64,000 nucleotides of DNA from an uncultured Winogradskyella sp. (GTDB taxonomy: Bacteria; Bacteroidota; Bacteroidia; Flavobacteriales; Flavobacteriaceae). The notes below the pieces were generated by a model. That model was not told the origin of the DNA and ran no database searches. It worked only from the letters and a program-made list of their open reading frames with translations. The stretch covers positions 186,001 through 250,000 of the forward strand of contig NZ_CANLYI010000006.1 of assembly GCF_947495255.1 (NCBI RefSeq), in the 5' to 3' direction. Shown here piece by piece: positions 6,835-22,894 of this stretch (positions within the stretch are counted from its first letter, which is position 1; each line of letters opens with the position of its first letter). The position numbers and the translations under genes are program-made.

Positions 6835-6853
6835 AATGTTGTTTTAAAAAATA

Positions 6854-6935: not shown

Positions 6936-6967
6936 CATTTCAATCAATCTAAACAATGCTTTATATT

Positions 6968-8041: not shown

Positions 8042-8126
8042 CGAACTTACTACCTCAAACTTTTACGATAATTATAAAATAGACCTAGACTATTTTTTTG
8101 TAGACAAACACGGTAATTTAATCTAC
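8042..8126 (-). promoter_or_regulatory. Kelch-operon promoter with three 21-bp-spaced half-sites
   Basis: On the minus strand, GTAGA (8126-8122), GTCTA (8105-8101) and GTCTA (8084-8080) are spaced exactly 21 bp apart. TAAGTTCG (8049-8042), a 7-of-8 match to TAnnTTTG, follows 30 nt after the last half-site. The same arrangement occurs at four other promoters in the window. A 12-bp inverted repeat, AAAATAGACCTA at 8076-8087 and TAGGTCTATTTT at 8186-8197, brackets the divergent control region. Confidence 0.65.
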
Positions 8127-8164
8127 AAATCCATCAACTTATTTTTATAGTATAAAATGGCTTA

Positions 8165-8230
8165 TTTGTAGATAAATAAAGGTCATAGGTCTATTTTACT
8201 TTTTATTAAACAGATTGCTTAGTTGATTTG
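8165..8230 (+). promoter_or_regulatory. DUF4270-gene promoter with paired LytTR-type half-sites
   Basis: GTAGA (8168-8172) and GTCTA (8189-8193) are 21 bp apart, and the -7-like element TTGATTTG begins at 8223, 29 nt after the second half-site. The start codon at 8250 leaves a leader of roughly 15 nt. An extra pair, GTAGA at 8100-8104 and ATCTA at 8121-8125 with the same 21-bp step, is shared with the divergent Kelch promoter. Confidence 0.65.
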
Positions 8231-8249
8231 TACAAATAATAAAAAGCAA

Positions 8250-9548
8250 ATGTCTAAATCTTATCTAAAATTATTCTCTGCAATTGCTATTGCAATATTT
8301 GTAATTTCTTGTTCTACAGACTCGGACGAAGAAAGTACCTTGGCAGGAGAAGACTTTACAAATACAAATATTAGGGTCTTATCAATTGATACATTTTCCG
8401 TTAAATTTTCTACTATGAAGTTTGATTCTATTTCAACTTCAATAAGCAGTAGATTATTAATTGGCAAGTATGAAGATGATGATATGGGAATTGTAAGTTC
8501 TTCTTCATATATGCAATTAAATCCAGATTCATATTACATTGATAATGATGCGGTATTAGACAGCGTGGGTTTAGTACTTGGTTATGATACGTATTACTAT
8601 AATGATACTACACAAGTGTCAACGCTTAATATTCATAAGCTAATTGATAAAATGAGCAGTGATGATGATGTTTTTTATAATACATCTGAAACGGCTTATG
8701 AAACGACGCCTTTAATAAGTAAATCTTATATACCAACACCAAATAGAGATTCTCTATTTGTAACATTACCGTATACGTTTGGAGAAGAATTATTTAATGA
8801 TATTAGAGATAATAATATTACAGATGCTGAATCTTTATACCAGAAGTTAAAAGGAATAACAGTACAACCTGGTACTGATGATGATGGCTCAATAGTTGGT
8901 TTTTCAACGTCTAGTACGGATACCTATATTCGTTTTTATTATACCATACCAGATGAGCTAGAAACTGATGAGTATACTTACGATTTTTCAATAAACACCT
9001 TTTATAATCATTCAGAATCTGATGTTACAGGTTTACCGCTTGAAGTAATAACAGACCAAGAATATAACTTAGATTCTTCAGATAGTTATGGTATTAGCTA
9101 TAACCAAGCAGGTACAGGTTATGTGACTAAGATTGAATTTCCAACGATAAAAGATATTTATGATATAGGCAGAGAAGGTACCATTTTAGATGCTGTGCTT
9201 TACATAGAGCCTAATACAGTTTCGCATTCAGATCTTCAACCTTTAAGCGAATCATTATTACTTTATACAATAGATCAAAATAATGATTTGGCGAGTCAGA
9301 TTTCTAATAGCTCAGATGTTGTTTCAGGAACACTATCAACAGACAATTCCGAATTTAATCTCATCACTTATGAGGTTCCTGTAATTGATTTTATAGATCA
9401 AAAATTAAGTGAAAGTCCTGAGACTGAAGATGCCCTTATTTTAATTCCTAATGATTACAATTCAACAATAAATAAAATAATTTTTAATGACGCTGAAAGA
9501 TCTAGTTATAATACCAGATTAGTCATAACCTATGCGATATATGAATAA
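8250..9548 (+). CDS. DUF4270 family lipoprotein
   Basis: A 432-residue lipoprotein with a lipobox ending in VISC followed by Ser/Asp/Glu-rich residues, which fits surface or outer-membrane anchoring. The body (VDSVGLVLGYDTYY, TYIRFYYT, LDAVLYIEPN, NTRLVITYAIYE) matches the layout of DUF4270 proteins of Bacteroidota, whose function is not established. The ATG at 8250 is chosen over an upstream TTG at 8223 because it gives a proper signal peptide, and because the TTG falls inside the -7 box. It overlaps the following porin-like gene by 8 bp, indicating a two-gene operon under the LytTR-type box. Confidence 0.85.
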   Translation: MSKSYLKLFSAIAIAIFVISCSTDSDEESTLAGEDFTNTNIRVLSIDTFSVKFSTMKFDSISTSISSRLLIGKYEDDDMGIVSSSSYMQLNPDSYYIDNDAVLDSVGLVLGYDTYYYNDTTQVSTLNIHKLIDKMSSDDDVFYNTSETAYETTPLISKSYIPTPNRDSLFVTLPYTFGEELFNDIRDNNITDAESLYQKLKGITVQPGTDDDGSIVGFSTSSTDTYIRFYYTIPDELETDEYTYDFSINTFYNHSESDVTGLPLEVITDQEYNLDSSDSYGISYNQAGTGYVTKIEFPTIKDIYDIGREGTILDAVLYIEPNTVSHSDLQPLSESLLLYTIDQNNDLASQISNSSDVVSGTLSTDNSEFNLITYEVPVIDFIDQKLSESPETEDALILIPNDYNSTINKIIFNDAERSSYNTRLVITYAIYE

Positions 9549-10776
9549 ATCTAAATACACAATTATTTTTGCAATGGTAATAGGATTATTTGGCTATTCT
9601 CAGTCTAATAATTTAACCAGTTCTCCTTATTCACTTTTTGGCTTAGGTGTAGAAAGCAATTCAGGGACAGGACGAAATAGTGGACTAGGTAAAACAGGAA
9701 TCTCTTTAGATGCTAATTATGGTTTAAACCTTTATAATCCGGCTTCATTGGCGACTGTAAATGCAGATGAATTTATTCTAGATTTTGGAGGAACTGGTGA
9801 GTTTGTGAACTTAACAGGAAGTGATTTAAACGAACAAAAATCGACGTACAATTTTACCAATATGTCCTTTGGTTTTAACAGTGGCGGAAAATATGGAATG
9901 GCATTAACACTTAAGCCAGCCTCTAATGTTGGCTATGCGTTAACAGGTATACAGAGTAATATAGAAGGTAGCACTGAGCAGTTTACAACTAATATTGAAG
10001 GTTCTGGTGGATTAAATGAATTACGATTAGATTATGGAAGACCATTAACCAAGAATTTAAACGTGGGTCTAAAAGCATCTTATTTATTCGGAAAAATTGA
10101 AGAAACAGAATCTATTATTACCACAAACAGTTATTTAATTGTTGAAGAAATTAATTACTACAGAGGAGCGCAACTTGGATTAGGTTTACAATATAAATTT
10201 AAAGAAAAACACAATTTCGGATTCACATTAGATTTTCCAACGGTGTTATCAGGTACAAAAGATACTGAAGTAAGCAAATATTCAAATTCTGCATATTCGT
10301 TGTTAGAAGAAACTGAAGACGAAGATATTGATAACTTTTCTATGCCATTTAAATTAGGATTTGGTTATAGTACAAAAATTAAAAACCTAATGTTATCAGC
10401 TGATTATAATAAGAGTTTTTGGTCAGCGACAGATCAGTCTGATGCTATTGGAGAATACGTAGATCAAGACGTTTATAGTTTTGGAGCCTCATATTCTGCA
10501 GATCCAAAGAGTTATAAGTATTGGAAACGTGTAGATTTTAGAATGGGCTTAAACTATAATTCTGGTTATCTTAAAGTAGATGATACAAGAATTGATACTT
10601 TTGCGGCATCAGTTGGTATAGGATTACCAATTGGTAAAAAATCTTTATTAAATGTGTCGTATTCTCTAGGTAAAAAAGGGACTACAGATAGCATACTTAT
10701 TCAAGAGTATGTGAATACATTAAATATTAATATTTCGCTATCAGATTTATGGTTTCAACAGAGAAAGTATAATTAA
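9541..10776 (+). CDS. Outer-membrane beta-barrel protein (OmpP1/FadL-like)
   Basis: A 411-residue predicted outer-membrane protein. A Sec signal peptide (cleavage near GYSQS) is followed by SSPYSLFGLGV, GLNLYNPASLA and many alternating amphipathic strands. NPASL near the N-terminus is characteristic of the OmpP1/FadL/TodX-like barrels of Bacteroidota. The substrate is unknown; FadL relatives carry hydrophobic compounds. The ATG at 9541 is preferred to that at 9532 because it begins the signal peptide MNKSKYTIIF. It overlaps the DUF4270 stop by 8 bp, so the lipoprotein and barrel are co-translated and may form a complex. Confidence 0.8.
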   Translation: MNKSKYTIIFAMVIGLFGYSQSNNLTSSPYSLFGLGVESNSGTGRNSGLGKTGISLDANYGLNLYNPASLATVNADEFILDFGGTGEFVNLTGSDLNEQKSTYNFTNMSFGFNSGGKYGMALTLKPASNVGYALTGIQSNIEGSTEQFTTNIEGSGGLNELRLDYGRPLTKNLNVGLKASYLFGKIEETESIITTNSYLIVEEINYYRGAQLGLGLQYKFKEKHNFGFTLDFPTVLSGTKDTEVSKYSNSAYSLLEETEDEDIDNFSMPFKLGFGYSTKIKNLMLSADYNKSFWSATDQSDAIGEYVDQDVYSFGASYSADPKSYKYWKRVDFRMGLNYNSGYLKVDDTRIDTFAASVGIGLPIGKKSLLNVSYSLGKKGTTDSILIQEYVNTLNINISLSDLWFQQRKYN

Positions 10777-10820
10777 TGATTGCTAAAAATTGTAAAAATC
10801 TCTTCGGTAAAATAGGCGTT

Positions 10821-10886
10821 TTCGTCTAGACAATAAGGGTAAACATCTATTACAGTTTTATACATTATTATATAGTTTCATTTTTG
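10821..10886 (+). promoter_or_regulatory. tolC-macAB operon promoter with LytTR-type box
   Basis: GTCTA (10824-10828) and ATCTA (10845-10849) are 21 bp apart inside a 32-bp block (10821-10852) that matches the block at 22152-22183 at 23 of 32 positions without gaps. The -7-like element CATTTTTG starts at 10879, 29 nt after the second half-site. The start codon is at 10914. Confidence 0.65.
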
Positions 10887-10913
10887 AAGTGTTAATTAGA
10901 AAACACCTTAAAA

Positions 10914-12239
10914 ATGAAATTATTCTTATTTATAACAAGTTTAATCTTTGCGCAAATAGCTTTTGCTCAAGATACGTCGCCAAAACCAGATGTTTGGACT
11001 CTAGAAGATTGTATTACTTATGCTTTAGAAAATAATATTACTGTTAAAGATGCAACCTTAACTAAGGACATTGCAGAAGTAGATTATAATAAAGCTAAAT
11101 CTTCAAGATTACCAAATCTATATGCTAGTGCTTCACAGAATTTCTCAAACGGAAATACAATTGATCCTATTACTAGTGATTATGTTACGGATCAAATTCA
11201 TAGTACCAACGTTGGTATTAACAGTTCTGTAACCTTGTTTCAAGGGAGTCAAATCAGTAATCAAATCAAACAAAATAAATTATTATTTGAGCAAAGTATT
11301 TTTCAAGAAGAAGTAGAGAAAAATAATATTGTTTTAAACATATTAGAAGTTTACTTACAAACACTCTACAGTAAGGAAAGTATCATTATAGCTGAGAATA
11401 ATGTGTTAGCTTCAGAAAAGGAAGTTGAAAGAGCAAAGGCTCGGTTAGATGCTGGTACTATTGCATTGAGCGATTATACAGAAGCACAAAGCCAAGCTGC
11501 AACTAATAAATACAATGTCATTGCAGCTAAAAATGATTACCAACAATATATCATACAATTAAAACAATTATTAGAATTAACACCTTTTGAAACTATAGAA
11601 ATTGAAACCATTGATGAAAACATGGATTTGGTTAATCTAGAACTTAACAAGGTTGATGTTTATAACAAGGCGTTAGGCTTTTTACCAGAGATACAAGCGA
11701 GCAACCTAAATATTGCCGCTAATGAAAAAGATTTAGATATCACTAAAGGTGCCTATTTACCAACTTTATCTTTATTAGGAAGTTTAGGTTCTGGTTATAC
11801 AAGTATTAATGACAATACATTTTCTGATCAGTTTGATGTGAACTTTAATCAACAATTAGGCTTGTCTTTAAGTATCCCAATATTCAATAGAAACCAAACA
11901 AAAGCAGCCGTAAAAACAGCTACAATTAATATTGAAAAAGCTGAAATACAAAAACAATCTACAGAGAAGGAAGTCTATAAAAAGGTAGAAACAGCGTATC
12001 AAAATGCATTATCTGCACAAGAGCAAGTTTTAGCTTCTGAAGCTTCAAAAATAGCAGCAGAACAAAGTTATAATCTAGCACAGAAAAAATACGAATTAGG
12101 TGCTTTAAGTACAACAGATTTGGTGATAAGTCAAAATACTTATACCAATACGCAACAAAACTATTTACAAGCTAAATACTTAAATATTTTATATCATCAA
12201 TTATTACAATTTTATCAAGGAAACGACATTAAACTTTAA
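10914..12239 (+). CDS. TolC family outer-membrane efflux protein
   Basis: A 441-residue outer-membrane channel of the TolC/OEP family, the exit duct of tripartite efflux or export systems. It has a Sec signal peptide (cleavage after AFAQ) and two OEP repeats, each with long amphipathic helices (for example EVERAKARLDAGTIALSDYTEAQSQ and YNLAQKKYELGALSTTDLVISQ, quoted in part) and the short strand SIPIFNRN. It is first in an operon with a MacA-like adaptor 11 bp downstream and MacB-type ATPase and permease genes, so the assembled machine would be a MacAB-TolC exporter. The promoter carries a candidate LytTR box. Confidence 0.92.
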   Translation: MKLFLFITSLIFAQIAFAQDTSPKPDVWTLEDCITYALENNITVKDATLTKDIAEVDYNKAKSSRLPNLYASASQNFSNGNTIDPITSDYVTDQIHSTNVGINSSVTLFQGSQISNQIKQNKLLFEQSIFQEEVEKNNIVLNILEVYLQTLYSKESIIIAENNVLASEKEVERAKARLDAGTIALSDYTEAQSQAATNKYNVIAAKNDYQQYIIQLKQLLELTPFETIEIETIDENMDLVNLELNKVDVYNKALGFLPEIQASNLNIAANEKDLDITKGAYLPTLSLLGSLGSGYTSINDNTFSDQFDVNFNQQLGLSLSIPIFNRNQTKAAVKTATINIEKAEIQKQSTEKEVYKKVETAYQNALSAQEQVLASEASKIAAEQSYNLAQKKYELGALSTTDLVISQNTYTNTQQNYLQAKYLNILYHQLLQFYQGNDIKL

Positions 12240-12250
12240 TCAATTTAATC

Positions 12251-13453
12251 ATGAAAAATAAAAAGAACATTATAATAATCGGTATTGCATTAATTGTAGT
12301 TGCTATTGTAGCTTTTAGTTTTATAAAAGGCGAAGATGCTATAATTATAGAAGCCAAAACTGTTGCAGCTAAAAAAGCAAATGTGACCACAATGGTTACA
12401 GCAACCGGAACTATTGAGCCTATAAACCAAGTCGATGTTGGTACACAAGTATCTGGCGTTGTAGAAAAAATATATGTAGACTATAATAGTGAGGTCAAAG
12501 AAGGACAACTCATTGCAGAGTTAGATAAAACAAATTTAAAAGCTTCACTAACACAAGCACAAGCCGCTTATGATAATGCTATAAGCCAAAGAAATTACAC
12601 AAAGACCATTTATGATAGACAAAAAACACTCTTTGATAATCAGGTTATAAGTAAATCAGATTTTGATGATGCAGACTACAATTATCAAACAGCAAAGGGT
12701 ACCGTGACGCAACGTTATTCGGACCTGCAATCTGCAAGGACCAATTTAGGTTATGCCAATATTTATTCGCCAATTGATGGTGTTGTGCTTTCAAAAGATA
12801 TAGATGAAGGGCAAACTGTTGCAGCAAGTTATAGTACACCAACCTTATTTACAATTGCTCAAGATTTAAAAGAAATGCAAGTAGAAGCGGATGTAGATGA
12901 GGCAGATATTGGGCAAGTTAAAGATGGCCAAAGAGTAGAATTTACAGTAGATGCTTATGTAGGTGAAACTTTTAATGGTGTTGTTACTCAAGTTCGTTTA
13001 GACCCTACAGTAACTTCTAATGTAGTGACTTACACTGTGGTTATTAAAGCAGAAAATGAGGACTTAAAATTAAAACCAGGTTTAACAGCTACCATTTCAA
13101 TTTACACATTAGAATTAAATGATGTCTTAACCGCAGAAGCAAAAGCCATAAACTTTAGCCCAGAAACTGAGATGTTAGCAACCTATAATATGCATCATAA
13201 TTTATCTGATAACACTAGTGATATTCCTAAAAACGAAACGACACTTTGGGTTCTTGGAAACAATAAAAGTATAACACCAAAAATGGTAACATTAGGAGCT
13301 AGTGATGGTGTAAATGTTCAGATTTTAAGTGGAATTTCAGAAGGAGATGAATTAGTATATAGTTTAAAAGGTGTTTCTAAATCTGAAGCAAAATTAGATG
13401 GTACAAATGAAAGTCCATTTATGCCACAACGTCCAGGAGGAAAGAAAAAATAA
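12251..13453 (+). CDS. MacA-like periplasmic adaptor protein
   Basis: A 400-residue membrane-fusion protein joining an inner-membrane MacB-type pump to TolC. One N-terminal membrane anchor (about 6-26) is followed by the first half of a lipoyl domain (TGTIEPINQVDVGTQVSG), an alpha-hairpin (about 95-165) rich in Gln and Ala, the second lipoyl half (YANIYSPIDGVVLSKDIDEGQ), and a beta-barrel/membrane-proximal part. A Gly/Pro/Lys-rich tail ends the protein. It lies between tolC (11 bp) and the ATPase gene (6 bp). The family is clear; which compound or peptide the system exports cannot be read from the sequence. Confidence 0.92.
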   Translation: MKNKKNIIIIGIALIVVAIVAFSFIKGEDAIIIEAKTVAAKKANVTTMVTATGTIEPINQVDVGTQVSGVVEKIYVDYNSEVKEGQLIAELDKTNLKASLTQAQAAYDNAISQRNYTKTIYDRQKTLFDNQVISKSDFDDADYNYQTAKGTVTQRYSDLQSARTNLGYANIYSPIDGVVLSKDIDEGQTVAASYSTPTLFTIAQDLKEMQVEADVDEADIGQVKDGQRVEFTVDAYVGETFNGVVTQVRLDPTVTSNVVTYTVVIKAENEDLKLKPGLTATISIYTLELNDVLTAEAKAINFSPETEMLATYNMHHNLSDNTSDIPKNETTLWVLGNNKSITPKMVTLGASDGVNVQILSGISEGDELVYSLKGVSKSEAKLDGTNESPFMPQRPGGKKK

Positions 13454-13459
13454 GAAGCC

Positions 13460-14203
13460 ATGAGTAAAGAAATCATTAAAATAGAAGATTTAAAACGTGA
13501 GTTTACCATGGGAACCGAAACGGTTCATGCATTAAGAGGAATTTCATTTTCTATTAAAGAAGGTGAGTTTGTAACTATAATGGGATCGAGTGGATCTGGT
13601 AAAAGTACGATGTTAAATATTTTAGGTTGCTTAGATCAGCCAACTTCTGGGTTGTATAAAATTGACGGTGTGAGTGTAAAAGATTTAAACCGAAATCAAT
13701 TAGCGACTATTAGAAACGAAAAGATAGGATTCATTTTTCAATCTTATAATTTATTAGCAAGAACATCTGCTATAGAAAATGTAGAATTACCCTTATTATA
13801 TAACAGTAAAGTAACTTCTGAAGAGCGAAGGAAACGAGCAATCAAAGCCTTAGAGATGGTTGGTTTGGGTGACAGATTGCATCATACACCTTCGCAACTT
13901 TCAGGAGGACAACAACAACGTGTCGCTATCGCAAGATCATTAGTGAATAACCCGGTAATGATATTAGCAGATGAAGCAACAGGGAATTTAGATACACGTA
14001 CATCTTACGAGATTATGTCATTATTTCAAGAGTTAAACAAAAAGGGAATAACAATCACTTTTGTTACTCACGAGCCAGATATAGCAACATTTAGTAGTAG
14101 AACGGTTGTATTAAAAGATGGAGCTATTATGCAAGATTATCTAAACCATAATGTACAATCTGCTGCTGCAGAATTAGCAAAATTACCTAAACAAGACGAT
14201 TAA
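13460..14203 (+). CDS. MacB-type ABC transporter ATP-binding protein
   Basis: A 247-residue nucleotide-binding subunit of the MacB/LolD class. Walker A is GSSGSGKST (about 40-48), the Q-loop lies in FIFQSYNLL, the ABC signature is LSGGQQQR, Walker B is [13 protein letters not shown], and the switch His is in VTHEPD. It drives the permease encoded 2 bp downstream. In E. coli MacB the ATPase and permease are one polypeptide; here they are separate genes, as is usual in Bacteroidota. The gene is translationally close to both neighbours, in line with equal dosage of the pump parts. Confidence 0.95.
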
Positions 14204-14205
14204 TT

Positions 14206-15426
14206 ATGAGACTATTAAATTTATTAAAAATCGCAACAAAAGCCATTGTTCTTAATAAAACAAGAACGTTGTTAACCATGTTAGGTATCATCATTGGTGT
14301 GGCTTCAGTTATAGCAATGTTGGCTATTGGAGAAGGTTCTAAAGAAAGTATTCGTACTACGATTTCAGCAATGGGTTCTAATATGATCACTATAAGACCT
14401 GGAGCAGATGATAGAGGTCCTGCAAGAGGAAGTGGAGGTGATGTGCAAACATTAACTTTAGATGATTACGAGGTTATAAAAGAAGAAGCCACAACGTTAA
14501 GTTATATTACACCTGTAGTAAATGGAGGAGGACAGGTTATAAATGGCTCTAATAACTGGCCAACTACTATTTATGGTGTAAACCCTGATTACTTAAATAT
14601 AAAAGTGGTCGACCTACAAAGTGGAAGTATGTTTACAGATGCTGAAGTAAAATCAGCTTCAAAAGTGGCTTTAATAGGTCAAACGGTTGTAGATAATGTG
14701 TTTCCTGATGGTCAAGAGCCTGTAGGGCAAATGATTCGTTTTGATAATATTCCGTTTAAAGTGATTGGAGTTTTAGAAGAAAAAGGAGAGAATACCTTTG
14801 GGCAAGATCAAGATGATGTGGTTATTGCACCTTATACAACTGTGCAGAAACGTATTTTGGCTATCGATTATTTAAATCAAGTTATGGCATCTGCAGTTAG
14901 TGAAGATGATGCACCAGAAGCTGTAACGCAAGTCACAGAAATTTTACGTTCACAACATAAATTATTAGAAAGCGAAGACGATGATTTTACGGTTCGCTCT
15001 ATGGAAGAGTTGATTTCAACATTTAGTTCAACTAGTGAGATGCTGACTATTCTATTAGTAGCTGTTGCGAGTATTTCATTATTAATAGGTGGAATTGGAA
15101 TTATGAATATCATGTATGTTTCGGTAAAAGAACGTACTAAGGAAATAGGATTACGAATGGCAGTTGGTGGCAAAGGCTCAGATATCTTATTACAGTTTTT
15201 AATTGAAGCCATTTTAATTAGTATTACAGGTGGTTTACTAGGAGTATTATTAGGCTTAGGAGCTACTGTATTTATTGAAAAATTTCTTAATTGGCCTACT
15301 AGCGTTGCTTTGTATTCTATTGTAATTTCGTTTGCTGTTTGTGCAGTTACAGGTATCTTTTTTGGTTGGTATCCGGCAAGAAAAGCTTCTGCTTTAGATC
15401 CAATAACAGCTTTGCGTTATGAGTAA
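14206..15426 (+). CDS. MacB-type ABC transporter permease
   Basis: A 406-residue inner-membrane permease with the MacB layout: first membrane helix at about 20-42 (TRTLLTMLGIIIGVASV), a large periplasmic MacB_PCD domain (about 45-275), then three C-terminal FtsX helices (about 285-310, 330-355, 365-390) and the closing ALDPITALRYE typical of this family. It works with the ATPase 2 bp upstream and with the adaptor and TolC genes to push substrates across the envelope by mechanotransmission. Substrate identity is unknown. Confidence 0.95.
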   Translation: MRLLNLLKIATKAIVLNKTRTLLTMLGIIIGVASVIAMLAIGEGSKESIRTTISAMGSNMITIRPGADDRGPARGSGGDVQTLTLDDYEVIKEEATTLSYITPVVNGGGQVINGSNNWPTTIYGVNPDYLNIKVVDLQSGSMFTDAEVKSASKVALIGQTVVDNVFPDGQEPVGQMIRFDNIPFKVIGVLEEKGENTFGQDQDDVVIAPYTTVQKRILAIDYLNQVMASAVSEDDAPEAVTQVTEILRSQHKLLESEDDDFTVRSMEELISTFSSTSEMLTILLVAVASISLLIGGIGIMNIMYVSVKERTKEIGLRMAVGGKGSDILLQFLIEAILISITGGLLGVLLGLGATVFIEKFLNWPTSVALYSIVISFAVCAVTGIFFGWYPARKASALDPITALRYE

Positions 15427-15453
15427 ACTTTATAAATTATTAAACATAAAATT

Positions 15454-16743
15454 ATGAAAACGAATGCATTTAAAATAAGTGTTTTTAGTATTGTTTTAGT
15501 TTGTTTAGGTTGTATGGATACGACTAAAAAAGTAGTAGTAGTATCATTAGATACAGTTCAAAATACAGAAAGGAATTATGTACAAATAGCAACTGGTCAA
15601 AATTCATTATATGGTGAAGATGGACAAATGATTACTGCTTTGAAACTTAGTGATTCATTGTTTGGCCAAGATGCCAACTATTTAAAAGGCAAAAAAATGT
15701 CTTATCAAAAAAATGATAATGGCATCACAATAGATTTGAACACAGGCTTAATGTGGCAAGAAATCCCTACAACAGAAGGGTTTGATTGGCAAGGCGCAAA
15801 AGATTATGTAGAGAATTTAGAATTGGGAGGTTATGATGATTGGAGAATGCCAACAGCTAAAGAGTTATATTCAATTAGCGATTTTAGTGAAGGTTGGCCT
15901 TATTTAAATACTACTTATTTTTCTCTGGTAAATAATACGCATGTCGATAAAAGTGAACAATACTGGACAAGGAATAAATATGTTGGTCATACCGAAGAAG
16001 GTGGTTATACTGCTGCCTTTGGTGTTAATCATGCCACAGGACATATTAAAGCTTACGCAGCTGAGTCACCTAAAGATATGAAAGATAGAAAAGGTCCTCT
16101 TCCAAGTGGACAAGATAGACCAGAAGGAGATGAAGATGGACATAGACCACCTCCTCCAAGGAATAATGGAGATAGACCAAAGGGAAATCCGATGCTTAAA
16201 CATGTCCGAGCAGTACGTGGTAACGCTTATGGAATTAATGATTTTAAAGATAATGAAGATGAAACTATTACGGATAAAGCTACTGGGTTAATGTGGTCTA
16301 AAAATGATAGTGAAAAAGGTTTAGATTGGAAAAACGCACTATACTATGCAGAGCATTCAAAATTAGCTGGATATACGGATTGGCGTTTGCCAAATGTGAA
16401 AGAATTACAAGGTATTGTGGATTACGATTTTGCTCTAGGTGCAAAAGATTCTAAATTAGATAGAGCTGCTATTAATCCAATCTTTAATTCAAGTGAGATT
16501 ACTAACGAAAATGGAGATAAGGATTATCCGTATTATTGGTCTAGTACTTCTGCAAGATTTCAAAAAGGAAAACCATATTACTATGCGTGGTATGTCGCTT
16601 TTGGCCGTGCAGTAAATAATGAAGGTTTAGATTTTCATGGTGCAGGAGCCGTTCGTTTCGATACCAAACATGAAAACGGACCAGCAAGTGAAGGTGGAGA
16701 GCGTTATTATAACTATGTGCGTTTGGTAAGGAATATTGAATAA
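15454..16743 (+). CDS. Lipoprotein with two Lcl (DUF1566-like) domains
   Basis: A 429-residue lipoprotein: lipobox CLGC near residue 20, then two copies of the Lcl C-terminal/DUF1566 fold. Each copy is marked by TGLMWxxx, a W-x-x-A-x-x-Y helix, GYDDWRMPTAKEL or GYTDWRLPNVKEL, and YWTR/YWSS. A Pro/Asp/Arg-rich flexible linker (about 205-245) separates the copies. Lcl domains come from collagen-like surface adhesins and are thought to bind extracellular ligands; no enzyme activity is implied. It sits 27 bp after the MacB permease gene and upstream of a sensor kinase. Export or sensing partnership with these neighbours is inferred from context only. Confidence 0.82.
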   Translation: MKTNAFKISVFSIVLVCLGCMDTTKKVVVVSLDTVQNTERNYVQIATGQNSLYGEDGQMITALKLSDSLFGQDANYLKGKKMSYQKNDNGITIDLNTGLMWQEIPTTEGFDWQGAKDYVENLELGGYDDWRMPTAKELYSISDFSEGWPYLNTTYFSLVNNTHVDKSEQYWTRNKYVGHTEEGGYTAAFGVNHATGHIKAYAAESPKDMKDRKGPLPSGQDRPEGDEDGHRPPPPRNNGDRPKGNPMLKHVRAVRGNAYGINDFKDNEDETITDKATGLMWSKNDSEKGLDWKNALYYAEHSKLAGYTDWRLPNVKELQGIVDYDFALGAKDSKLDRAAINPIFNSSEITNENGDKDYPYYWSSTSARFQKGKPYYYAWYVAFGRAVNNEGLDFHGAGAVRFDTKHENGPASEGGERYYNYVRLVRNIE

Positions 16744-16847
16744 TTAAATTTATAAATGTTGACGATAAATTTAGATTTAGGATTGTTACTTTTGAGAGTA
16801 ATAATAGCATCTAAATCCAATAATTGGGATTAATCAAAATTAATACA

Positions 16848-17882
16848 ATGCATAAAAATATAAAAATAACAATCTTTTCTCATCTTCTCGTATGGTTAGT
16901 ACTGTTTAGTATGCCTTACTTGCTGTCTTACGGTCAAGAACAAGAAATAGCTAGAGTTATTGCTCACTTTTGGATTCCTTTGGTGTTTTCTGCAATTATC
17001 TTTTATCTTAATTACTTTATTGTAATAGATCGTTTTTTATTCACAAAAAAGATGGTTCTATTTGTTGTAATTAACTTAGTACTTATTTCTAGTTTCATAT
17101 TTTTAAAAGAGTATATAGAGGATACTTTTTATAGTGATTTGGCAAGAAAGCGAACTGAAGTCAACAAAGTCGGTCCTCCTTTTAAAATGTTTGTGTACAT
17201 TCAAATACTATCTTACATGGCACCTTTGTTGTTTTCTATTGCTGTAAAGAGCACAAAACGCTGGGTAAAGACTGAAGCAGAAAGAAAAGAAGCTATTAAT
17301 ATTAAACTAAAGTCAGAGCTTCAGCATTTGCATTACCAATTGCAGCCACATTTCTTTTTTAATTCGTTAAATAATATTTATGCTTTAGTAGATATATCTC
17401 CAGATCGTGCAAAATCTTCAATCCATAGCTTGAGTAAGTTAATGCGCTATATGTTGTATGAGACCAATGAAGAGTCAGTTTCGTTATCTAAGGAAATCGA
17501 TTTTATGAAAAAGTATATAGAGTTAATGAAGCTTCGTGTTTCAGATAAAACAAAGGTTAATTATAGTTTTCCGTCTGAAGAAACAGGAATTAATATAGCA
17601 CCTTTATTATTTGTATCATTAATAGAAAATGCCTTTAAGCACGGTGTTTCAGCAAGTAAAGAAAGTGAAATTGATATAAAAATGACGGTTCATGAGCAAA
17701 ATGTTTTATTCACAATTGAAAATGCTAACTTCCCTAAAAAGACAGATGACAAAAGTGGATCGGGAATTGGGCTTCCAAATATTGAAAAACGTTTAGAATT
17801 GCTATATCCAAATAAAAGCAGTTTTAAGACATTTGTAAAAAACAACCATTATATAGCACAATTAGAAATTGAAACCAACTAA
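16848..17882 (+). CDS. LytS-type sensor histidine kinase (second copy)
   Basis: A 344-residue kinase paralogous to that at 5414-6463. Four hydrophobic segments (about 8-28, 41-60, 68-87, 115-133) precede the phosphoacceptor block YQLQPHFFFNSLN with His168, then N-box LIENAFKHG and G-box GSGIGLPNIEKRL. The ATG at 16848 is used; an upstream TTG at 16824 only adds eight non-conserved residues. It is 105 bp after the Lcl gene and 33 bp before the YHYH gene, and a LytTR regulator follows three genes later, so the pair is split by three exported proteins. This is a likely partner of the regulator at 20892-21620. Confidence 0.92.
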   Translation: MHKNIKITIFSHLLVWLVLFSMPYLLSYGQEQEIARVIAHFWIPLVFSAIIFYLNYFIVIDRFLFTKKMVLFVVINLVLISSFIFLKEYIEDTFYSDLARKRTEVNKVGPPFKMFVYIQILSYMAPLLFSIAVKSTKRWVKTEAERKEAINIKLKSELQHLHYQLQPHFFFNSLNNIYALVDISPDRAKSSIHSLSKLMRYMLYETNEESVSLSKEIDFMKKYIELMKLRVSDKTKVNYSFPSEETGINIAPLLFVSLIENAFKHGVSASKESEIDIKMTVHEQNVLFTIENANFPKKTDDKSGSGIGLPNIEKRLELLYPNKSSFKTFVKNNHYIAQLEIETN

Positions 17883-17914
17883 ATAATTAATACAATAAAC
17901 AGAAAATTGAGTTA

Positions 17915-19240
17915 ATGAAAAATGCTATAATAATTGTCTTTTTTTTGATATTAAATGGCAATCTTTTTGCACATGGAGGTGGACATGGTTTGCCTTTAAA
18001 GCAATGGGAAATAGTCTCTGTAAATGAAATAATTAATGCTGATTTTATTAAATATGAAAACAATGAAGTTTGGCTTATGGATGTCAACCATAGAATTAAA
18101 ATTTTTAAAATTTCAGATTTTAACGCAGCTGACCAAAAGTTTATTAAAACTAAAAGTGAATTCATATATTCTTTAAATAGTAATAATGCTATTGAAGCTG
18201 ATGTACTGTCGTTTTCAAATTTTAGTTGGGTGCTTATTGGTTTAGGTATTTTTCTTTTGTCATTTTCTATTTTTAAACTTACAAAACAACGAAAAGAGGT
18301 ATACTTAACACATGGAGCACTTGGTTTAGGTGTTCTTTTAATTGTATCATGTAAAAATACAAGTACTAATAAAACGAGTGATATAGTAGTACCTCCCAGT
18401 GATGTTGCTATGATGCAGACGTTTTTTGAAAAATTTGACGGTGTTACAACGTATAGAGACGAAAACTATCTTTATGTGTCATCAAATGGTTTACCAAATC
18501 ATGATATGATGGTTGGTATAACAAACTGGCAACAACAAGTGCCTATTAATCAAAATTACACAGGTGATAATAGTTGGGCTATACCTACACACCCAAAAAT
18601 GGCAGAAAATCCGTTATCTACAAAAACCAATTTGCTAAAAGGGGCTATTGCTGTTGCTGTAAATGGAATTCCTATTTTTAACCCTTTAAATAATAGAGGA
18701 GAAGATGCTAATGCTATTGGAGAATTAGACAATTGGGGCGGACATTGTGGACGTGCAGACGATTATCATTACCATTTACCACCATTACACTTGCAAGATC
18801 AAGTTGGCGAAGGAAATCCAGTTGCTTACGCTGTTGATGGTTTTCCTGTCTATGGAGAAACAACAGATATATTAGATGAGTATTTAGGAAAAACAAACTC
18901 AGATGGCTCATACCAGTATCATGCAATTAAAGAATACCCTTATTTAATTGCAGGCATGAGAGGTGAAGTTATTATTGACCTAAAAACAAAAGCGCCAGAA
19001 AATCAAGTATATCCTCAACCTAGAACACAAGAATTAAGACCTGCGTTAAGACCTTTACGAGGTGCTGAAATTATTGATTTTAAATCTTTAGGAGAAAACT
19101 CATATGGCTTAACCTATAGTTTAGATTCAAAAGAATATATCATAAATTATAGTTGGGATAGCGAAGATACTTACACCTATCAATTTATTAATTCCGATGG
19201 TACATTAACAGTTGAAACCTATAAACCAAGAAAAAAATGA
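17915..19240 (+). CDS. YHYH domain protein with membrane-anchored N-terminal part
   Basis: A 441-residue protein. A signal peptide with an AHGGGHG mature end is followed by a domain of about 80 residues, two hydrophobic segments (about 107-127 and 132-146), and a large C-terminal YHYH domain (about 160-430) containing GHCGRADDYHYHLPP and YAVDGFPVYG. The second hydrophobic segment ends in LIVSCKN, which looks exactly like a lipobox, as if an N-terminal unit had been joined to a YHYH lipoprotein. The His-rich YHYH signature suggests metal binding, but its function is not established. It overlaps the following PEBP gene by 4 bp. Confidence 0.82.
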   Translation: MKNAIIIVFFLILNGNLFAHGGGHGLPLKQWEIVSVNEIINADFIKYENNEVWLMDVNHRIKIFKISDFNAADQKFIKTKSEFIYSLNSNNAIEADVLSFSNFSWVLIGLGIFLLSFSIFKLTKQRKEVYLTHGALGLGVLLIVSCKNTSTNKTSDIVVPPSDVAMMQTFFEKFDGVTTYRDENYLYVSSNGLPNHDMMVGITNWQQQVPINQNYTGDNSWAIPTHPKMAENPLSTKTNLLKGAIAVAVNGIPIFNPLNNRGEDANAIGELDNWGGHCGRADDYHYHLPPLHLQDQVGEGNPVAYAVDGFPVYGETTDILDEYLGKTNSDGSYQYHAIKEYPYLIAGMRGEVIIDLKTKAPENQVYPQPRTQELRPALRPLRGAEIIDFKSLGENSYGLTYSLDSKEYIINYSWDSEDTYTYQFINSDGTLTVETYKPRKK

Positions 19241-19836
19241 AGCATTCAAAATTTATAGTTCTTATGCTTTTTACTGGTTTGATGTCTTGTAAAAACAATA
19301 ATAGAGAGATTACAAAAGTGAATCATGATGATTTTAAAACCATCCATTCCAACTTTAAGATAAAGAGTATTGCTATAGAGAATGGTGTTTTATTAGATGC
19401 TTATAAATGTGAGGAAAAAGTGAATGATGTAGAAAACTCCATACCGCTTTCGTGGGAAAATGTCCCAGAAGGCACTAAATCTCTAGTGGTTGTAATGTAT
19501 CATTATCCTAAAAAAGATGATAAAACAGAAATCAATTCCTATTTACTATTATGGGATATAGATCCCGAAACAACAGAAATACCATACAAAATGGCGTCTA
19601 AAGGTAATTGGTTTATGGGCGGAAATAAAGACGGAACAGCTATATCGTATACGTCTCCATGTTCTCGTGGTAAAGGTAAGCATGAATATACCATAGGACT
19701 TTATGCCTTATCAGAAACACCTGCTGCGTTACCCCAAAAGCACAGTTTAAATGTAGATTACAATGTGTTTATGGATGCATTAGATAGTGTAAAAATTATA
19801 GATAGGACCACTTTAACATTTATAGATTCTAATTAA
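19237..19836 (+). CDS. PEBP (YbhB/YbcL-like) family lipoprotein
   Basis: A 199-residue lipoprotein (lipobox LMSC, Cys18) with a phosphatidylethanolamine-binding-protein fold: IPLSWENVPEGTKSLVVVMY, LLWDIDP, and the ligand loop YTSPCSRGKGKHEYTIGLYAL. Bacterial YbhB/YbcL relatives usually have DHD and a GxxxYxGPxPP-H-x-Y loop; here the second loop is changed to SPCSRGKGKHEY, keeping the H-x-Y pair. The gene starts inside the end of the YHYH gene, so the two are co-translated. A ligand-binding role outside the cytoplasm is likely; the ligand is unknown. Confidence 0.82.
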   Translation: MKHSKFIVLMLFTGLMSCKNNNREITKVNHDDFKTIHSNFKIKSIAIENGVLLDAYKCEEKVNDVENSIPLSWENVPEGTKSLVVVMYHYPKKDDKTEINSYLLLWDIDPETTEIPYKMASKGNWFMGGNKDGTAISYTSPCSRGKGKHEYTIGLYALSETPAALPQKHSLNVDYNVFMDALDSVKIIDRTTLTFIDSN

Positions 19837-19849
19837 AAATAATTGTAAA

Positions 19850-20857
19850 ATGATACTTTTAAAGAAGACTGCATTATTGATTTTTTTAGCTTGCTTTATA
19901 ATAACAGCTTGTAAAAACAGTAAAAATACGACAACTAATAATACAGAAGTTTATACAGGAACAGCTTCTGTTTCTCAAGGACCAGCAACTGTGTTAACTC
20001 AAAATATATTTGAATGTGATAGAGGTAGAGAAGCGCCAATTGGTGTATCTACAGCAACAGATGGCAGTAAATGGACAGTTCCTGCTGAGGTTAACTTTGC
20101 TGATGATAGTTTTCCTATTGCATCTGATTTGTTTAACCCGTGTACAAAAGTAGAATACGCTTCGGCAGATGAAGCATTACTAGCTTTAGATGGAACAGAT
20201 ATTATTGAGGTTGATAGCGATGGTGAAATAGTTACGGCTTATGTATTTGCCGACAACTATTTTGAAATGTATATTAATGGAATTCCTGTTGGTAAGGACA
20301 ATGTGCCTTTTACGCAGTTTAATTCTAATATAGTTCGATTTAAGGTAAACACGCCTTTTACAATCGCCATGAAATTGGTGGATTGGGAAGAAAATAGTGG
20401 CTTAGGATCTGAAGCTAATAGAGGACAAGCATTTCATCCAGGAGATGGAGGCATGGTAGCTGTATTTAAAAATGCTAAAGGAGAGACAATTGCAAGTACA
20501 GATGCTAATTGGAAAGCTCAAACTTTTTATACAGCACCTATAAGAGATTTGTCTTGTGCTAGCGAAGAAGGAACTTTACGATTAACTAAAACGTGCAGTA
20601 CAGAGGATTCTAATGACGGAACATTATATTACGCATTGCACTGGAAAACGCCAACAAATTGGCAATCTGCAGATTTTAATGATAGCGAATGGCCTAACGC
20701 AAACGAGTTTTCAAACAATACGATAGGTGTAGATAATAAACCTTCTTACACCAATTTTACAGATATTTTTGATGATAACGAAGTGGATGCTCAATTTATA
20801 TGGTCTACAAATGTAATTTTAGATAATGAGGTGATTGTGAGATACACTGTAAACTAA
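19850..20857 (+). CDS. Lipoprotein of unknown function
   Basis: A 335-residue lipoprotein (lipobox IITAC, then a Asn/Thr-rich spacer). The body has the look of an all-beta binding protein: AYVFADNYFEMYINGIPVGKD and the later W-Q-S-A-D-F-N-D-S-E-W segment resemble galactose-binding-like beta-sandwich modules. Cys pairs at CDRG, CTK, LSCA and KTCS may form disulphides. I do not recognise a named family with certainty. It lies 13 bp after the PEBP gene and 34 bp before the LytTR regulator, in the operon of exported proteins that separates kinase from regulator. Confidence 0.7.
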   Translation: MILLKKTALLIFLACFIITACKNSKNTTTNNTEVYTGTASVSQGPATVLTQNIFECDRGREAPIGVSTATDGSKWTVPAEVNFADDSFPIASDLFNPCTKVEYASADEALLALDGTDIIEVDSDGEIVTAYVFADNYFEMYINGIPVGKDNVPFTQFNSNIVRFKVNTPFTIAMKLVDWEENSGLGSEANRGQAFHPGDGGMVAVFKNAKGETIASTDANWKAQTFYTAPIRDLSCASEEGTLRLTKTCSTEDSNDGTLYYALHWKTPTNWQSADFNDSEWPNANEFSNNTIGVDNKPSYTNFTDIFDDNEVDAQFIWSTNVILDNEVIVRYTVN

Positions 20858-20891
20858 TATAAACCTATTTTTAATAAAACAAATTTAGCTT

Positions 20892-21620
20892 ATGAGTAAC
20901 TTAAAAATATCTTGTGTCATTGTAGACGATGAGCCTATGGCTTTAAACTTAGTAGAAAGTTATGTTGAAAAAACACCTTTTTTATCTTTAAAAAAGAAGT
21001 GTAGTAGTGCTATTGAAGCAATGGAGTTTATAAAAAACGAACCTGTAGATTTACTGTTTTTAGATATACAGATGCCAGATTTAACTGGTATTGAGTTCTC
21101 AAAAATGTTACCTAAAGAAACACGAGTAATTTTCACAACCGCTTTTGATCAATACGCACTAGAAGGTTTTAAAGTAGAAGCTATAGATTATTTATTAAAG
21201 CCTTTTGACTATGCAGAATTTTTAGCTGCAGCAAATAAAGCAAACACTTGGTTTGAGTTGGTGAAAGGGAAAAAAGGCAGTATTCTTTCTGATGAAAAAG
21301 AATTTCTATTTGTTAAATCTGAATACAAACAATTACGAATAAAACTTGCTGACGTATTGTATTTTGAAGGTCTAAAGGATTACATCAAAATTTGGCTAAA
21401 GGCTAATCCAAAACCAATTCTAACTTTAATGAGTTTAAAATCTCTAGAAGAAGAGTTGCCAGATACTCAATTTATGCGTGTGCATCGTTCGTTTATTGTG
21501 TCTTTAAATAATATTGATGTTATTGAGCGAAGTCAAATAATAATCAACGAACAACGTATTACTGTTTCTGAGCAATACAAGCCAAAATTCTTAGAGTTTA
21601 TTAATAATAATTCTCTTTAA
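20892..21620 (+). CDS. LytTR-family response regulator (second copy)
   Basis: A 242-residue regulator closely similar in layout to that at 4693-5433. The receiver has acidic pocket VDDEP (11-15) and phosphoacceptor Asp58 in LFLDIQMPD, with the conserved Lys in LLKPF; the LytTR domain (about 135-242) has FMRVHRSFIVSL and ITVSEQYK. It closes the long plus-strand operon that starts with tolC, so the MacAB-TolC exporter, exported proteins, kinase and regulator can share one transcript. Candidate operators with 21-bp periodicity lie at the operon promoter (10.8 kb) and directly downstream (21.64-21.69 and 22.15-22.18 kb). Confidence 0.93.
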   Translation: MSNLKISCVIVDDEPMALNLVESYVEKTPFLSLKKKCSSAIEAMEFIKNEPVDLLFLDIQMPDLTGIEFSKMLPKETRVIFTTAFDQYALEGFKVEAIDYLLKPFDYAEFLAAANKANTWFELVKGKKGSILSDEKEFLFVKSEYKQLRIKLADVLYFEGLKDYIKIWLKANPKPILTLMSLKSLEEELPDTQFMRVHRSFIVSLNNIDVIERSQIIINEQRITVSEQYKPKFLEFINNNSL

Positions 21621-21637
21621 CTCAACGTGTTTTTTAT

Positions 21638-21724
21638 TTTGTCTATAGATTCATTGTATTAAGATAGACATATTCCTCATTGGTCTATTCTCTTTCCTTA
21701 ATCTAAAGGGGAGAACTACTTTCG
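21638..21724 (+). promoter_or_regulatory. Promoter with three-part LytTR-type box before the EF-hand gene
   Basis: GTCTA (21641-21645), a weaker AGATA (21662-21666) and GTCTA (21683-21687) follow each other at 21-bp steps. The -7-like element TACTTTCG (7 of 8 to TAnnTTTG) begins at 21717, 29 nt after the last half-site. This is the same geometry as at the tolC, DUF4270 and DUF6515 promoters. Confidence 0.65.
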
Positions 21725-21751
21725 CCGTAATATTTAAAATTATATAATATT

Positions 21752-22051
21752 ATGAAAAAAATCTTACTATCATTAGCCGTTGTTATAACTATGTTTAGCT
21801 GTAATAGCGTAAAAAATGTAAATACATCTAATATCTCAGATGCAGCAACATTATTGAGTTCATTAAGTTCTAACTCAACAGTTCAGCAAATCACAAGTCT
21901 TTTTAGTTTGTTAGACACTAATAAGGATGAAGCTATCAGTTCTAAAGAAGCAATTGGTTCTGTAGCAGATAATTTTAATATTTTAGATACTGACAGTAAT
22001 TCTAGCTTAAACTTAACCGAATTAACAGGTTTGTTAGGTTTATTAAAATAA
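21752..22051 (+). CDS. Small EF-hand lipoprotein
   Basis: A 99-residue lipoprotein: signal peptide with lipobox MFSC, a Ser/Asn-rich linker, then two EF-hand-like loops, DTNKDEAISSKE (about 55-66) and DTDSNSSLNLTE (about 81-92), whose acidic residues at loop positions 1, 3, 5 and 12 fit calcium binding. The Cys-anchor places it outside the cytoplasm. It is the first and only gene behind a promoter with the three-part LytTR-type box and ends in its own terminator, so it looks like a monocistronic target of the neighbouring signalling system. Specific role unknown. Confidence 0.8.
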   Translation: MKKILLSLAVVITMFSCNSVKNVNTSNISDAATLLSSLSSNSTVQQITSLFSLLDTNKDEAISSKEAIGSVADNFNILDTDSNSSLNLTELTGLLGLLK

Positions 22052-22073
22052 GATATTAGCCCTTAATTAATAG

Positions 22074-22104
22074 AAGGCATACATTAAATTGTATGCTTTT
22101 TTTT
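22074..22104 (+). terminator. Rho-independent terminator after the EF-hand gene
   Basis: Stem GCATACA (22077-22083) / TGTATGC (22090-22096), extendable by three A-T/G-T pairs, loop TTAAAT, followed by eight T residues. Confidence 0.85.
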
Positions 22105-22151
22105 ATGTTTAATTCTTAATTATAATTAACAATATCTATAAAATTATCTTA

Positions 22152-22217
22152 TTCGTAGATACAATTAAGGCAAACGTCTAGTTGCTTTTTTTTCAAGAAT
22201 TAATGCAGCTACCTTTA
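22152..22217 (+). promoter_or_regulatory. DUF6515-gene promoter with LytTR-type box
   Basis: GTAGA (22155-22159) and GTCTA (22176-22180) are 21 bp apart within a 32-bp block that matches the tolC-promoter block at 23 of 32 positions. The -7-like TACCTTTA (7 of 8) begins at 22210, 29 nt after the second half-site. Confidence 0.65.
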
Positions 22218-22282: not shown

Positions 22283-22894
22283 ATGAAAAAATTTATAAAA
22301 GCCTTCATTTTGCCAGCATTATTTATAATGGCAATTTCAACAACAGTTACTGCGCAAACAAAAAGAAGTACAGCAACTAAGAAAGCAGAAAAGACTACGA
22401 CAACAACAAAAAGAACGACTACAAAAACTAAAAGTACAAGTAGAAGAGTGCCAAGTACTAAAGTAACTTATAAAAAACCGACACGAAAAGTGGTTTCAGT
22501 AAGAAATGTACCGAATAGAAAAGTTATTAAGCATAAAGGACAAACCTATTACTATGCTAATAACAAGTATTACACACAATCTAGAGGTCGTTATATTGTT
22601 ATTGCACCAAAGGTTGGCTTCAGAATAAAAGTATTACCTACACATTATAAGAGAGTAAGACATAATGCACACAATTATTATAACGTAGATGGTACATTTT
22701 ATGTTCAAATTGATAATGAATATGAAGTAGTAGATCCAGAAGTAGGTACAGTTGTATATGAGTTACCAGATGATTACGAAAAAGTAACTATAGATGGACA
22801 AACTTATTATGAATACGCAAATATTTTATACGAAAAAGTACAAGTAGATGGTACAAGAGCTTATGAAGTGGTTGGTATTATAGACATGGAATAA
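22283..22894 (+). CDS. DUF6515-like secreted basic protein
   Basis: A 203-residue exported protein. The signal peptide cleaves after VTAQ and is followed by a 50-residue Lys/Thr/Arg-rich low-complexity segment, then three related modules of about 40 residues built around a Tyr cluster (GQTYYYANNKYY, HNYYNVDGTFY, GQTYYEYANILYE), each preceded by a LP-x-x-Y turn (VLPTHYKRV, ELPDDYEKV). This matches the DUF6515 pattern as I recall it. The basic stretch suggests contact with an anionic partner such as LPS or polysaccharide, which is inference. The promoter carries the LytTR-type box, making it a likely target of the neighbouring regulators. Confidence 0.75.
   Translation: MKKFIKAFILPALFIMAISTTVTAQTKRSTATKKAEKTTTTTKRTTTKTKSTSRRVPSTKVTYKKPTRKVVSVRNVPNRKVIKHKGQTYYYANNKYYTQSRGRYIVIAPKVGFRIKVLPTHYKRVRHNAHNYYNVDGTFYVQIDNEYEVVDPEVGTVVYELPDDYEKVTIDGQTYYEYANILYEKVQVDGTRAYEVVGIIDME

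Follow-up and report, generated by a model that had tools for sequence, protein, structure and literature searches.

Genes and repeat arrays of the locus

The stretch of DNA analysed here (the window) comprises 64,000 nucleotides from an uncultured Winogradskyella sp., positions 186001-250000 of contig C6 in a genome assembly of 4.21 Mb and 47 contigs, and it houses two gene clusters that each encode a LytS-type histidine kinase together with a LytTR-domain response regulator. Pfam assignments define a putative operon Kelch-DUF4907-HKa-RR2a, read on the minus strand from 7975 to 4693, and a second putative operon TolC-MacA-ABC-MacB-Lcl-HKb-YHYH-PBP-unassigned-RRb, which occupies 10914-21620 on the plus strand and is followed by genes for an EF-hand protein and a DUF6515 protein. 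Direct reading of the sequence shows an array of three half-sites, spaced by 21 bp (at -42, -21 and 0), at each of the five promoters listed below, and these arrays are very probably operators of the HKb/RRb and HKa/RR2a systems, through which an exporter, lipoprotein-like or secreted proteins and the systems' own operons would be activated.

8080..8126, minus strand: array of the Kelch operon promoter; first bases GTAGA 8126, GTCTA 8105, GTCTA 8084
8042..8049, minus strand: -7 box TAAGTTCG of the Kelch promoter, first base 8049; ATG 7975
8147..8193, plus strand: array of the DUF4270 promoter; 8147 (degenerate, ATAGTATAAAA), GTAGA 8168, GTCTA 8189
8223..8230, plus strand: -7 box TTGATTTG of the DUF4270 promoter; ATG 8250; same spacing in relatives
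10803..10849, plus strand: array of the tolC-macAB promoter; 10803 (degenerate, TTCGGTAAAATA), GTCTA 10824, ATCTA 10845
10879..10886, plus strand: -7 box CATTTTTG of the tolC-macAB promoter; ATG 10914
21641..21687, plus strand: array of the EF-hand promoter; GTCTA 21641, AGATA 21662 (weak), GTCTA 21683
21717..21724, plus strand: -7 box TACTTTCG of the EF-hand promoter; ATG 21752
22134..22180, plus strand: array of the DUF6515 promoter; ATCTA 22134, GTAGA 22155, GTCTA 22176
22210..22217, plus strand: -7 box TACCTTTA of the DUF6515 promoter; ATG 22283

A T-tract follows the last half-site after a few bases, and at four promoters a -7-type box comes 29 nt after that half-site; at the Kelch promoter the gap is 30 nt, a distance also read in L063 and in L283, the locus of a 77% RR2a relative. 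All five boxes have one mismatch to TAnnTTTG, the -7 consensus of flavobacterial sigma-A promoters (excerpt of PMC9723704), and the exact consensus form occurs in many relatives. Since the Kelch and DUF4270 genes are divergent, their two arrays stand back to back in 8080-8193. The initial annotation of this DNA had given the same coordinates for half-sites and boxes, together with the 21-bp pairs, the gaps of 29 or 30 nt and the identity of the 32-bp blocks at 10821 and 22152 at 23 of 32 positions, and all of these were verified by reading. Its view that only the Kelch and EF-hand promoters have three repeats had to be abandoned, because third half-sites are also present at DUF6515 (22134), TolC (10803) and DUF4270 (8147). 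With repeats spaced at 21 bp, three bound LytTR domains would all lie on the same side of the helix.

The genes around the arrays are as follows.

4693..5433, minus strand: RR2a, receiver and LytTR response regulator (Pfam), last gene of the Kelch operon
5414..6463, minus strand: HKa, LytS-type histidine kinase (PF06580)
6484..7975, minus strand: DUF4907 gene (6484-6834) and Kelch-repeat gene (6968-7975), same putative operon (Pfam)
8250..10776, plus strand: DUF4270 gene (8250-9548) and a gene without Pfam match (9532-10776), by eye an outer-membrane protein
10914..15426, plus strand: TolC, MacA/HlyD, ABC ATPase and MacB-like permease (Pfam)
15454..20857, plus strand: Lcl_C, HKb (16824-17882), YHYH, PBP and a gene of unassigned kind
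20892..21620, plus strand: RRb, receiver and LytTR response regulator, 83-95% identity in 80 fetched loci
21752..22051, plus strand: EF-hand protein, putative target gene (Pfam, weak: one model barely over cut-off)
22283..22894, plus strand: DUF6515 protein, putative target gene (Pfam)

That two LytTR regulators are encoded here, as the initial annotation had stated, was borne out by Pfam: both RRb and RR2a score over the cut-off with PF00072 and PF04397, which gives a receiver followed by a C-terminal LytTR domain. The LytTR-domain motif FhRhHRS (excerpt of PMC4227749) appears as FMRVHRS in RRb and as FIRVHRS in RR2a, within the shared form F-x-R-V-H-R-S, and the stretches KSEY, GLKDY and FxRVHRS are common to both. 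Their LytTR regions are 45% identical to one another, and 36-39% identical to those of two other LytTR proteins of the genome. A phmmer search of RRb against the Protein Data Bank gave 131 sequences, the best 60 of which match mostly the receiver part and so carry no information on DNA contacts. The genes of 15454-20857 other than HKb vary among relatives: in the window (15454-16743 and 17915-20857) and in loci L061-L140, variable genes (Lcl_C, DoxX-like, YHYH, PBP-like and one unassigned) split MacB from HKb or HKb from RRb in an otherwise compact core operon.

Conservation of the array and its specificity

The short pattern with which a genome scan had initially been proposed, GT[AC][GT]A-N16-[GA]TCTA, shows no enrichment: it matches the genome 85 times, against 228 times for the reversed pattern, and the pair plus a -7 box, with up to three mismatches, gives 479 matches against 894 for its control. 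Being rarer than the reversed control, the pair is meaningless by itself, and both forms were rejected as detectors, since only the profile described below separates signal from background. These counts are what would favour the idea that the arrays are chance features of AT-rich sequence, picked out afterwards. Six of the 85 matches fall within the 14.2 kb first reported (two of them overlap on opposite strands), where the observed genome-wide rate predicts 0.29 (Poisson P 6e-7; with the control rate, P is 1.5e-4). This clustering is post hoc, so other species were needed for a proper test.

A search with RRb gave 229 loci, from which the best 80 (83-95% identity) were taken; these are mostly from Flavobacteriaceae, plus a Cyclobacterium and a Brumimicrobium, and the closest named relatives of RRb are from Winogradskyella species. 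The core TolC-MacA-ABC-MacB-HKb-RRb recurs in them, often followed by the EF-hand and DUF6515 genes. Start-to-start distances of 8 to 60 between the two half-site classes were counted in 200-bp upstream regions. A spacing of 21 was found in 46/61 regions for TolC, 37/58 for DUF6515 and 8/40 for EF-hand, and a spacing of 42 in 44/61, 27/58 and 22/40, respectively; any other spacing occurred in at most 9, 8 and 2 regions. Upstream of operon-internal genes the spacing of 21 is rare or absent (MacA 0/67, ABC 0/69, MacB 0/69, HKb 4/78, RRb 1/80). The peak at 42 reveals the third half-site. Counts made across whole loci were discarded, being swamped by coding sequence.

The promoter geometry is conserved as well, a -7-like box standing 29 nt past the pair in 43/48 TolC, 31/37 DUF6515 and 8/8 EF-hand cases. 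The half-site consensus is roughly TTC-RTCKATAAA, and the TolC consensus reads ATCGATAAAATA...TTTT, GTATAGTCAATT...CAAAC, GTCTATT..., CACCTTTG. Beyond about -50, on the upstream side, it holds little information. In the window the first of these half-sites, at 10803, is TTCGGTAAAATA instead of ATCGATAAAATA. The anchored alignments behind these consensus sequences were picked by half-site and box scores, which inflates the information at those columns, a bias from which the spacing histogram is free. The T-tract lies 11-13 nt past the half-site start, where we would expect the -33 element, and TTTG is found there in only 0/47, 0/36 and 1/23 sites.

An 87-bp matrix built from 102 sites of relatives found 180 sites of at least 10 bits in 77 of the 80 loci, none of them within a same-strand open reading frame (ORF) of more than 400 nt, while the reversed and four permuted control matrices gave 0, 0, 0, 0 and 1 matches. 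The proposal that the operator be sought upstream of orthologues was thus answered positively, with a site in all 61 TolC loci for which 200 bp upstream were available, in 49/55 for DUF6515 and in 31/37 for EF-hand. By label the 180 sites divide into TolC 61, DUF6515 49, EF-hand 34, HKb 6, DUF4270 4, MacA 3, Kelch 2 and 21 unlabelled, and behind 13 of these 21 the ORF is by eye DoxX-like, TlpA-like or a further EF-hand protein. The three loci without a match begin in MacA (L129) or MacB (L139), or have only a partial HKb match (L115). At 9 bits or more the matrix has four matches in the window, which are the four plus-strand promoters; the Kelch array scores below 9 bits.

Some of these loci show further features. 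Six relatives carry an extra array before HKb, and in L099 and L101 (Aureibaculum) the EF-hand/DUF6515 pair occurs twice near RRb, with an array at both EF-hand copies. RRb is 88% identical in Cyclobacterium qasimii (L097) and Brumimicrobium glaciale (L113), yet present in only 12 of 41 genomes of its own genus, and this patchy distribution suggests that operon and operator may have spread together by horizontal transfer.

For a genome-wide ranking, a sequence profile was made from an alignment of 76 sites in loci L061-L140, all from other species; it includes four DUF4270 or Kelch sites from RRb-bearing loci, and none of this genome. Across the 4.21 Mb it places the window's five promoters at ranks 1-5 (E 3.8e-15, 3.7e-13, 7.0e-8, 1.3e-5 and 3.0e-5); the first look scored 150 of 10,040 candidates. 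The DUF6515 promoter is the best match in the genome, and scores in the window are 57.9 bits for DUF6515, 51.6 for tolC, 34.7 for EF-hand, 31.4 for DUF4270 and 26.3 for Kelch. It is the conservation and this ranking, not the short pattern, that show more than chance; together with the spacing histogram and the 0-1 matches of the control matrices, a profile trained on other species that returns just these five promoters leaves the chance explanation with practically no credit, and we regard it as already refuted.

The sixth match, at C8:21247-21315 on the minus strand (L171; E 4.2e-4), combines three half-sites with a correctly placed TTACTTTG. It is a possible sixth operator, and precedes a 771-aa ORF that by eye resembles a secreted trypsin-like protease. 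Three further profile matches in the genome (C8:237680, C11:49396 and C9:2981; L172-L174) have no match to the 87-bp matrix of at least 2 bits, and no three-half-site array reaches 9 bits at L284 and L285, two additional LytTR loci of this genome. A profile match in the window at 46354-46393 (18.9 bits) lies inside the ORF 45445-47916 and was set aside as coding similarity, as was a match in genome G131 (L265), which is also in a long ORF and similar to it in its letters.

Two LytTR systems and a probable common operator form

The same array is found at the genes of the second regulator. When 17 RR2a loci (L205-L221) were scanned with a matrix from which the Kelch and DUF4270 training sites had been left out, 29 sites of at least 2 bits were found in 16 loci, against 0 for the reversed and 1, 0, 0, 0 and 0 for the permuted controls, and in 11 of the 17 a pair of arrays lies between Kelch and DUF4270. 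Conversely, a matrix was built from 15 sites in eight genomes that have RR2a and lack RRb; these sites had been located with the RRb-type matrix and so lean towards the RRb type. At 12 bits it recovers 61 TolC, 46 DUF6515 and 33 EF-hand operators plus 13 other matches (controls 11, 9, 3 and 7), and at 16 bits still 59 TolC operators, where controls give 1-2 matches over all loci. In the window its five best matches are the five promoters, from 35.7 down to 23.6 bits (Kelch), the next scoring 8.9. Recovery of the TolC operators and of the window's five promoters by this matrix points to one operator grammar for both systems.

In the genus sample of 41 genomes, with RRb called at E<=1e-90, profile matches at E<=1e-5 occur in 12/12 genomes with RRb and 0/29 without (Fisher 1.3e-10), a co-occurrence partly inherent in the arrangement, since RRb and its presumed operator belong to one operon; at E<=1e-3, four of the 29 have matches. 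RR2a accompanies RRb in 11 of the 12 (Fisher 1.3e-6), the two being within about 16 kb in four genomes, 0.94 Mb apart in one and on different contigs in six, where adjacency across contig ends is possible. This co-inheritance of regulators that lie apart is the strongest hint of a functional coupling, short of proof. Among 120 genomes of the family, RRb is present in 9, relatives of RR2a (54-63% identity) in 18, including the window's own genome, and both in 8 (Fisher 4e-7); at E<=1e-30 RR2a relatives extend to 100 of the 120, with as many as 21 scored candidates in one genome. All nine RRb genomes of the family have a profile match at E<=1e-4; in this survey pre-selected candidates were scored in each genome, and the E-values are rough. 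The 10 family genomes with RR2a only have matches in 3 at 1e-4 and in 7 at 1e-3, and near RR2a in 8 at 0.01; in the genus, three genomes have RR2a without RRb, and G145 among them has the Kelch/DUF4270 array pair. RRb without detected RR2a is found in G002 and G120 (the latter 83% complete); in both, a site precedes RRb by about 6 kb, the TolC position in the core layout. An operator near the genes of whichever regulator is present gives, as a minimum, two systems with one operator grammar.

DUF6515, which has a promoter of its own, gave a mixed test of the association between RRb and operator. In the genus, close orthologues (at least 70% identity) occur in 11 RRb genomes and 0/29 others, and all 11 have a site (E<=1e-3). 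Among 11 relatives in genomes lacking RRb, mostly distant, a match at E<=1e-3 was found only at G076, and it is partial.

Several observations weigh against a LytTR operator common to the five promoters, besides the partial circularity of the co-occurrence just mentioned. The middle half-site is poorly conserved at EF-hand promoters. The RR2a loci of G077 (no site) and G049 (2.2 bits) have no clear operator, and among the RR2a-only genomes of the genus G129 has no match at E<=1e-3 and the match of G136 is not on the RR2a contig. Matches are also present where neither regulator is found, in 3 (1e-4), 5 (1e-3) and 23 (0.01) of 101 family genomes, and the best match of G117 lies 49 kb away from its RRb. 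The best DUF6515 of the family's RRb genomes has a site in 4/8 (G000, G001, G029 and G063) and none in G011, G014, G117 and G119, whereas in G076, where the search at E<=1e-90 turned up no RRb, a DUF6515 of 66% identity is preceded by a partial site (18 bits).

It could be argued from such cases that the array is read by some other DNA-binding protein, the adjoining LytTR genes being incidental. The genome G080 has a good array (L282, G080:C1:1553000-1569000, positions 8318-8896; profile E 2.2e-7) before a stretch that resembles part of TolC, and neither RRb nor RR2a was found there; this array is possibly a remnant of the system. Sites at E<=1e-5 do, however, track the presence of RRb in the genus, sites stand at RR2a operons in genomes without RRb, and direct repeats two turns apart upstream of the promoter are as in known LytTR operators (excerpts of PMC11347149 and PMC6193735), so that we consider another reader very improbable. 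A further LytTR regulator, in L281 (G016:C180), whose LytTR region is 52% identical to that of RRb, is followed at 2535-2610 by a 21-bp triple array before the next gene, in which TAATTTTG by eye stands 24 and not 34 nt after the start of the last half-site, about one helical turn closer.

If RRb and RR2a are the readers, they may form either one circuit or two. The initial annotation had proposed a single regulon; the shared LytTR-type operator and the rigid geometry stand, while the single regulon is no more than a possibility. It is tempting to suggest that the two systems, whose LytTR regions are about 45% identical and which are co-inherited though apart and patchily spread, read one triple-repeat operator and thus constitute a single envelope circuit with two inputs (MacAB-TolC, EF-hand, DUF6515, Kelch/DUF4270 and both sensors), but we hold this only tentatively, and cross-regulation between them is a prediction. 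A division into two insulated regulons is also possible, though somewhat doubtful: RRb would serve tolC, EF-hand and DUF6515, and RR2a would serve Kelch and DUF4270, the likeness of the operators being an ancestral specificity kept by paralogues that discriminate through flanking bases or expression level. This would be in keeping with the sites of the single-regulator genomes, near RR2a (at Kelch/DUF4270 or the HKa start) in eight of the ten and upstream of RRb in G002 and G120, and with a difference in the last half-site, AAAC-GTCTATT in the TolC consensus versus TTt-ATCTATT in the Kelch consensus. Against it, almost every RRb-type operator is picked up by the RR2a-only matrix, the converse holds too, and the two systems occur together in the genus even where their genes are apart.

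Comparison with known LytTR systems and significance

The known systems most useful for comparison differ in setting: the RcoM1 promoter is a proteobacterial sigma-70 promoter, the proteins of the LytTR Regulatory Systems have no receiver domain, AgrA belongs to a quorum-sensing system, and the target and promoter type of YpdAB differ from those here. What follows draws on excerpts of the papers cited. In LytTR operators, direct repeats about 9 bp long are separated by 10-13 bp, which makes 19-22 bp start to start (PMC11347149), and LytTR sites have no common consensus but are mostly repeats with 11-13 nt between (PMC4847170). The arrays here have this spacing, at 21 bp with other distances rare, and the triple, even spacing of about two turns holds in the TolC and DUF6515 sets, the middle repeat being weak in the EF-hand set. 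The closest parallels are RcoM1 of Paraburkholderia xenovorans, an activator with three direct repeats TTCNNGCA, 12-13 bp between, upstream of the -35 (PMC11347149), and CoxC of Afipia carboxidovorans, which needs all three of its direct repeats at 18-21 bp (PMC11347149). RcoM1 differs in being a one-component haem CO sensor with another half-site sequence, and CoxC in that its array overlaps the -35 and represses and its sensor is a membrane MHYT protein; half-sites of their type, TTCNNGCA or TTNNNGCN, were not matched, the consensus TTC-RTCKATAAA having no GC there. The operator described here is a variant of these triple-repeat operators, common to two systems.

Other systems resemble it in part. 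The HdrRM/BrsRM LytTR Regulatory Systems of Streptococcus mutans have direct repeats (9-bp, 12 bp between) just upstream of the -35 and positive autoregulation, the two systems being auto- and coregulatory (PMC6193735), but with two repeats and a membrane inhibitor in place of a kinase; RRb and RR2a, which have receivers and LytS-type kinases, do not belong to that type. YpdAB of E. coli likewise pairs a LytS-type kinase with a LytTR response regulator, and YpdB binds sequentially and cooperatively (PMC4847170), though to two sites, A and B. AgrA of S. aureus is a LytTR regulator with direct repeats upstream of promoters, its dimer occupying two repeats at P2/P3 (PMC4227749), where three are present here.

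The likeness to CoxC, a repressor with a similar three-repeat array (excerpt of PMC11347149), raises the question whether the regulators rather block these promoters. This is improbable: the CoxC array overlaps the -35, whereas here the last half-site stops before the expected -33 position, and TTTG is missing at that position in 105/106 sites, as for an activated promoter. A poor -33 element at a rigid distance from the -7 box argues for activation by contact with polymerase, and makes positive feedback the likeliest outcome. In the mechanism that we propose, the kinase (HKb or HKa) would phosphorylate its LytTR partner (RRb or RR2a), which would then occupy the three half-sites cooperatively and, touching RNA polymerase, compensate for the poor -33 element. 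Each system would probably thereby switch on its own operon, and the exporter and the lipoprotein-like and secreted proteins would be co-activated with it.

In the literature searched, as far as its available text goes, there is no described operator for a LytTR response regulator of this family (Flavobacteriaceae). Searches on LytTR with MacB and TolC, and on LytTR regulons in 'Flavobacteri', returned nothing, and one on DUF6515 returned one unrelated paper only. In a study of F. columnare, in the parts available, LytTR regulators are merely counted. In F. johnsoniae coevolved with B. thailandensis, each of five lines acquired one mutation in a LytTR/kinase pair (excerpt of PMC10197871, Table 2); the mutated pair is at the adjoining loci FJOH_RS09515/09520, and the available text discusses the LytTR changes of two lines only.

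The shared operator links an exporter of the MacAB-TolC type to lipoprotein-like and secreted proteins and to two kinase/LytTR pairs. The conserved exporter, and the DUF6515 and DUF4270 proteins, whose functions are unknown, would also gain a regulator. Flavobacteriaceae have many LytTR response regulators, and an operator at a fixed distance from the -7 box would allow their regulons to be predicted directly. The array is in addition a candidate activator-dependent promoter for Bacteroidota genetics, and the sharing of one output code by two co-inherited sensors becomes testable.

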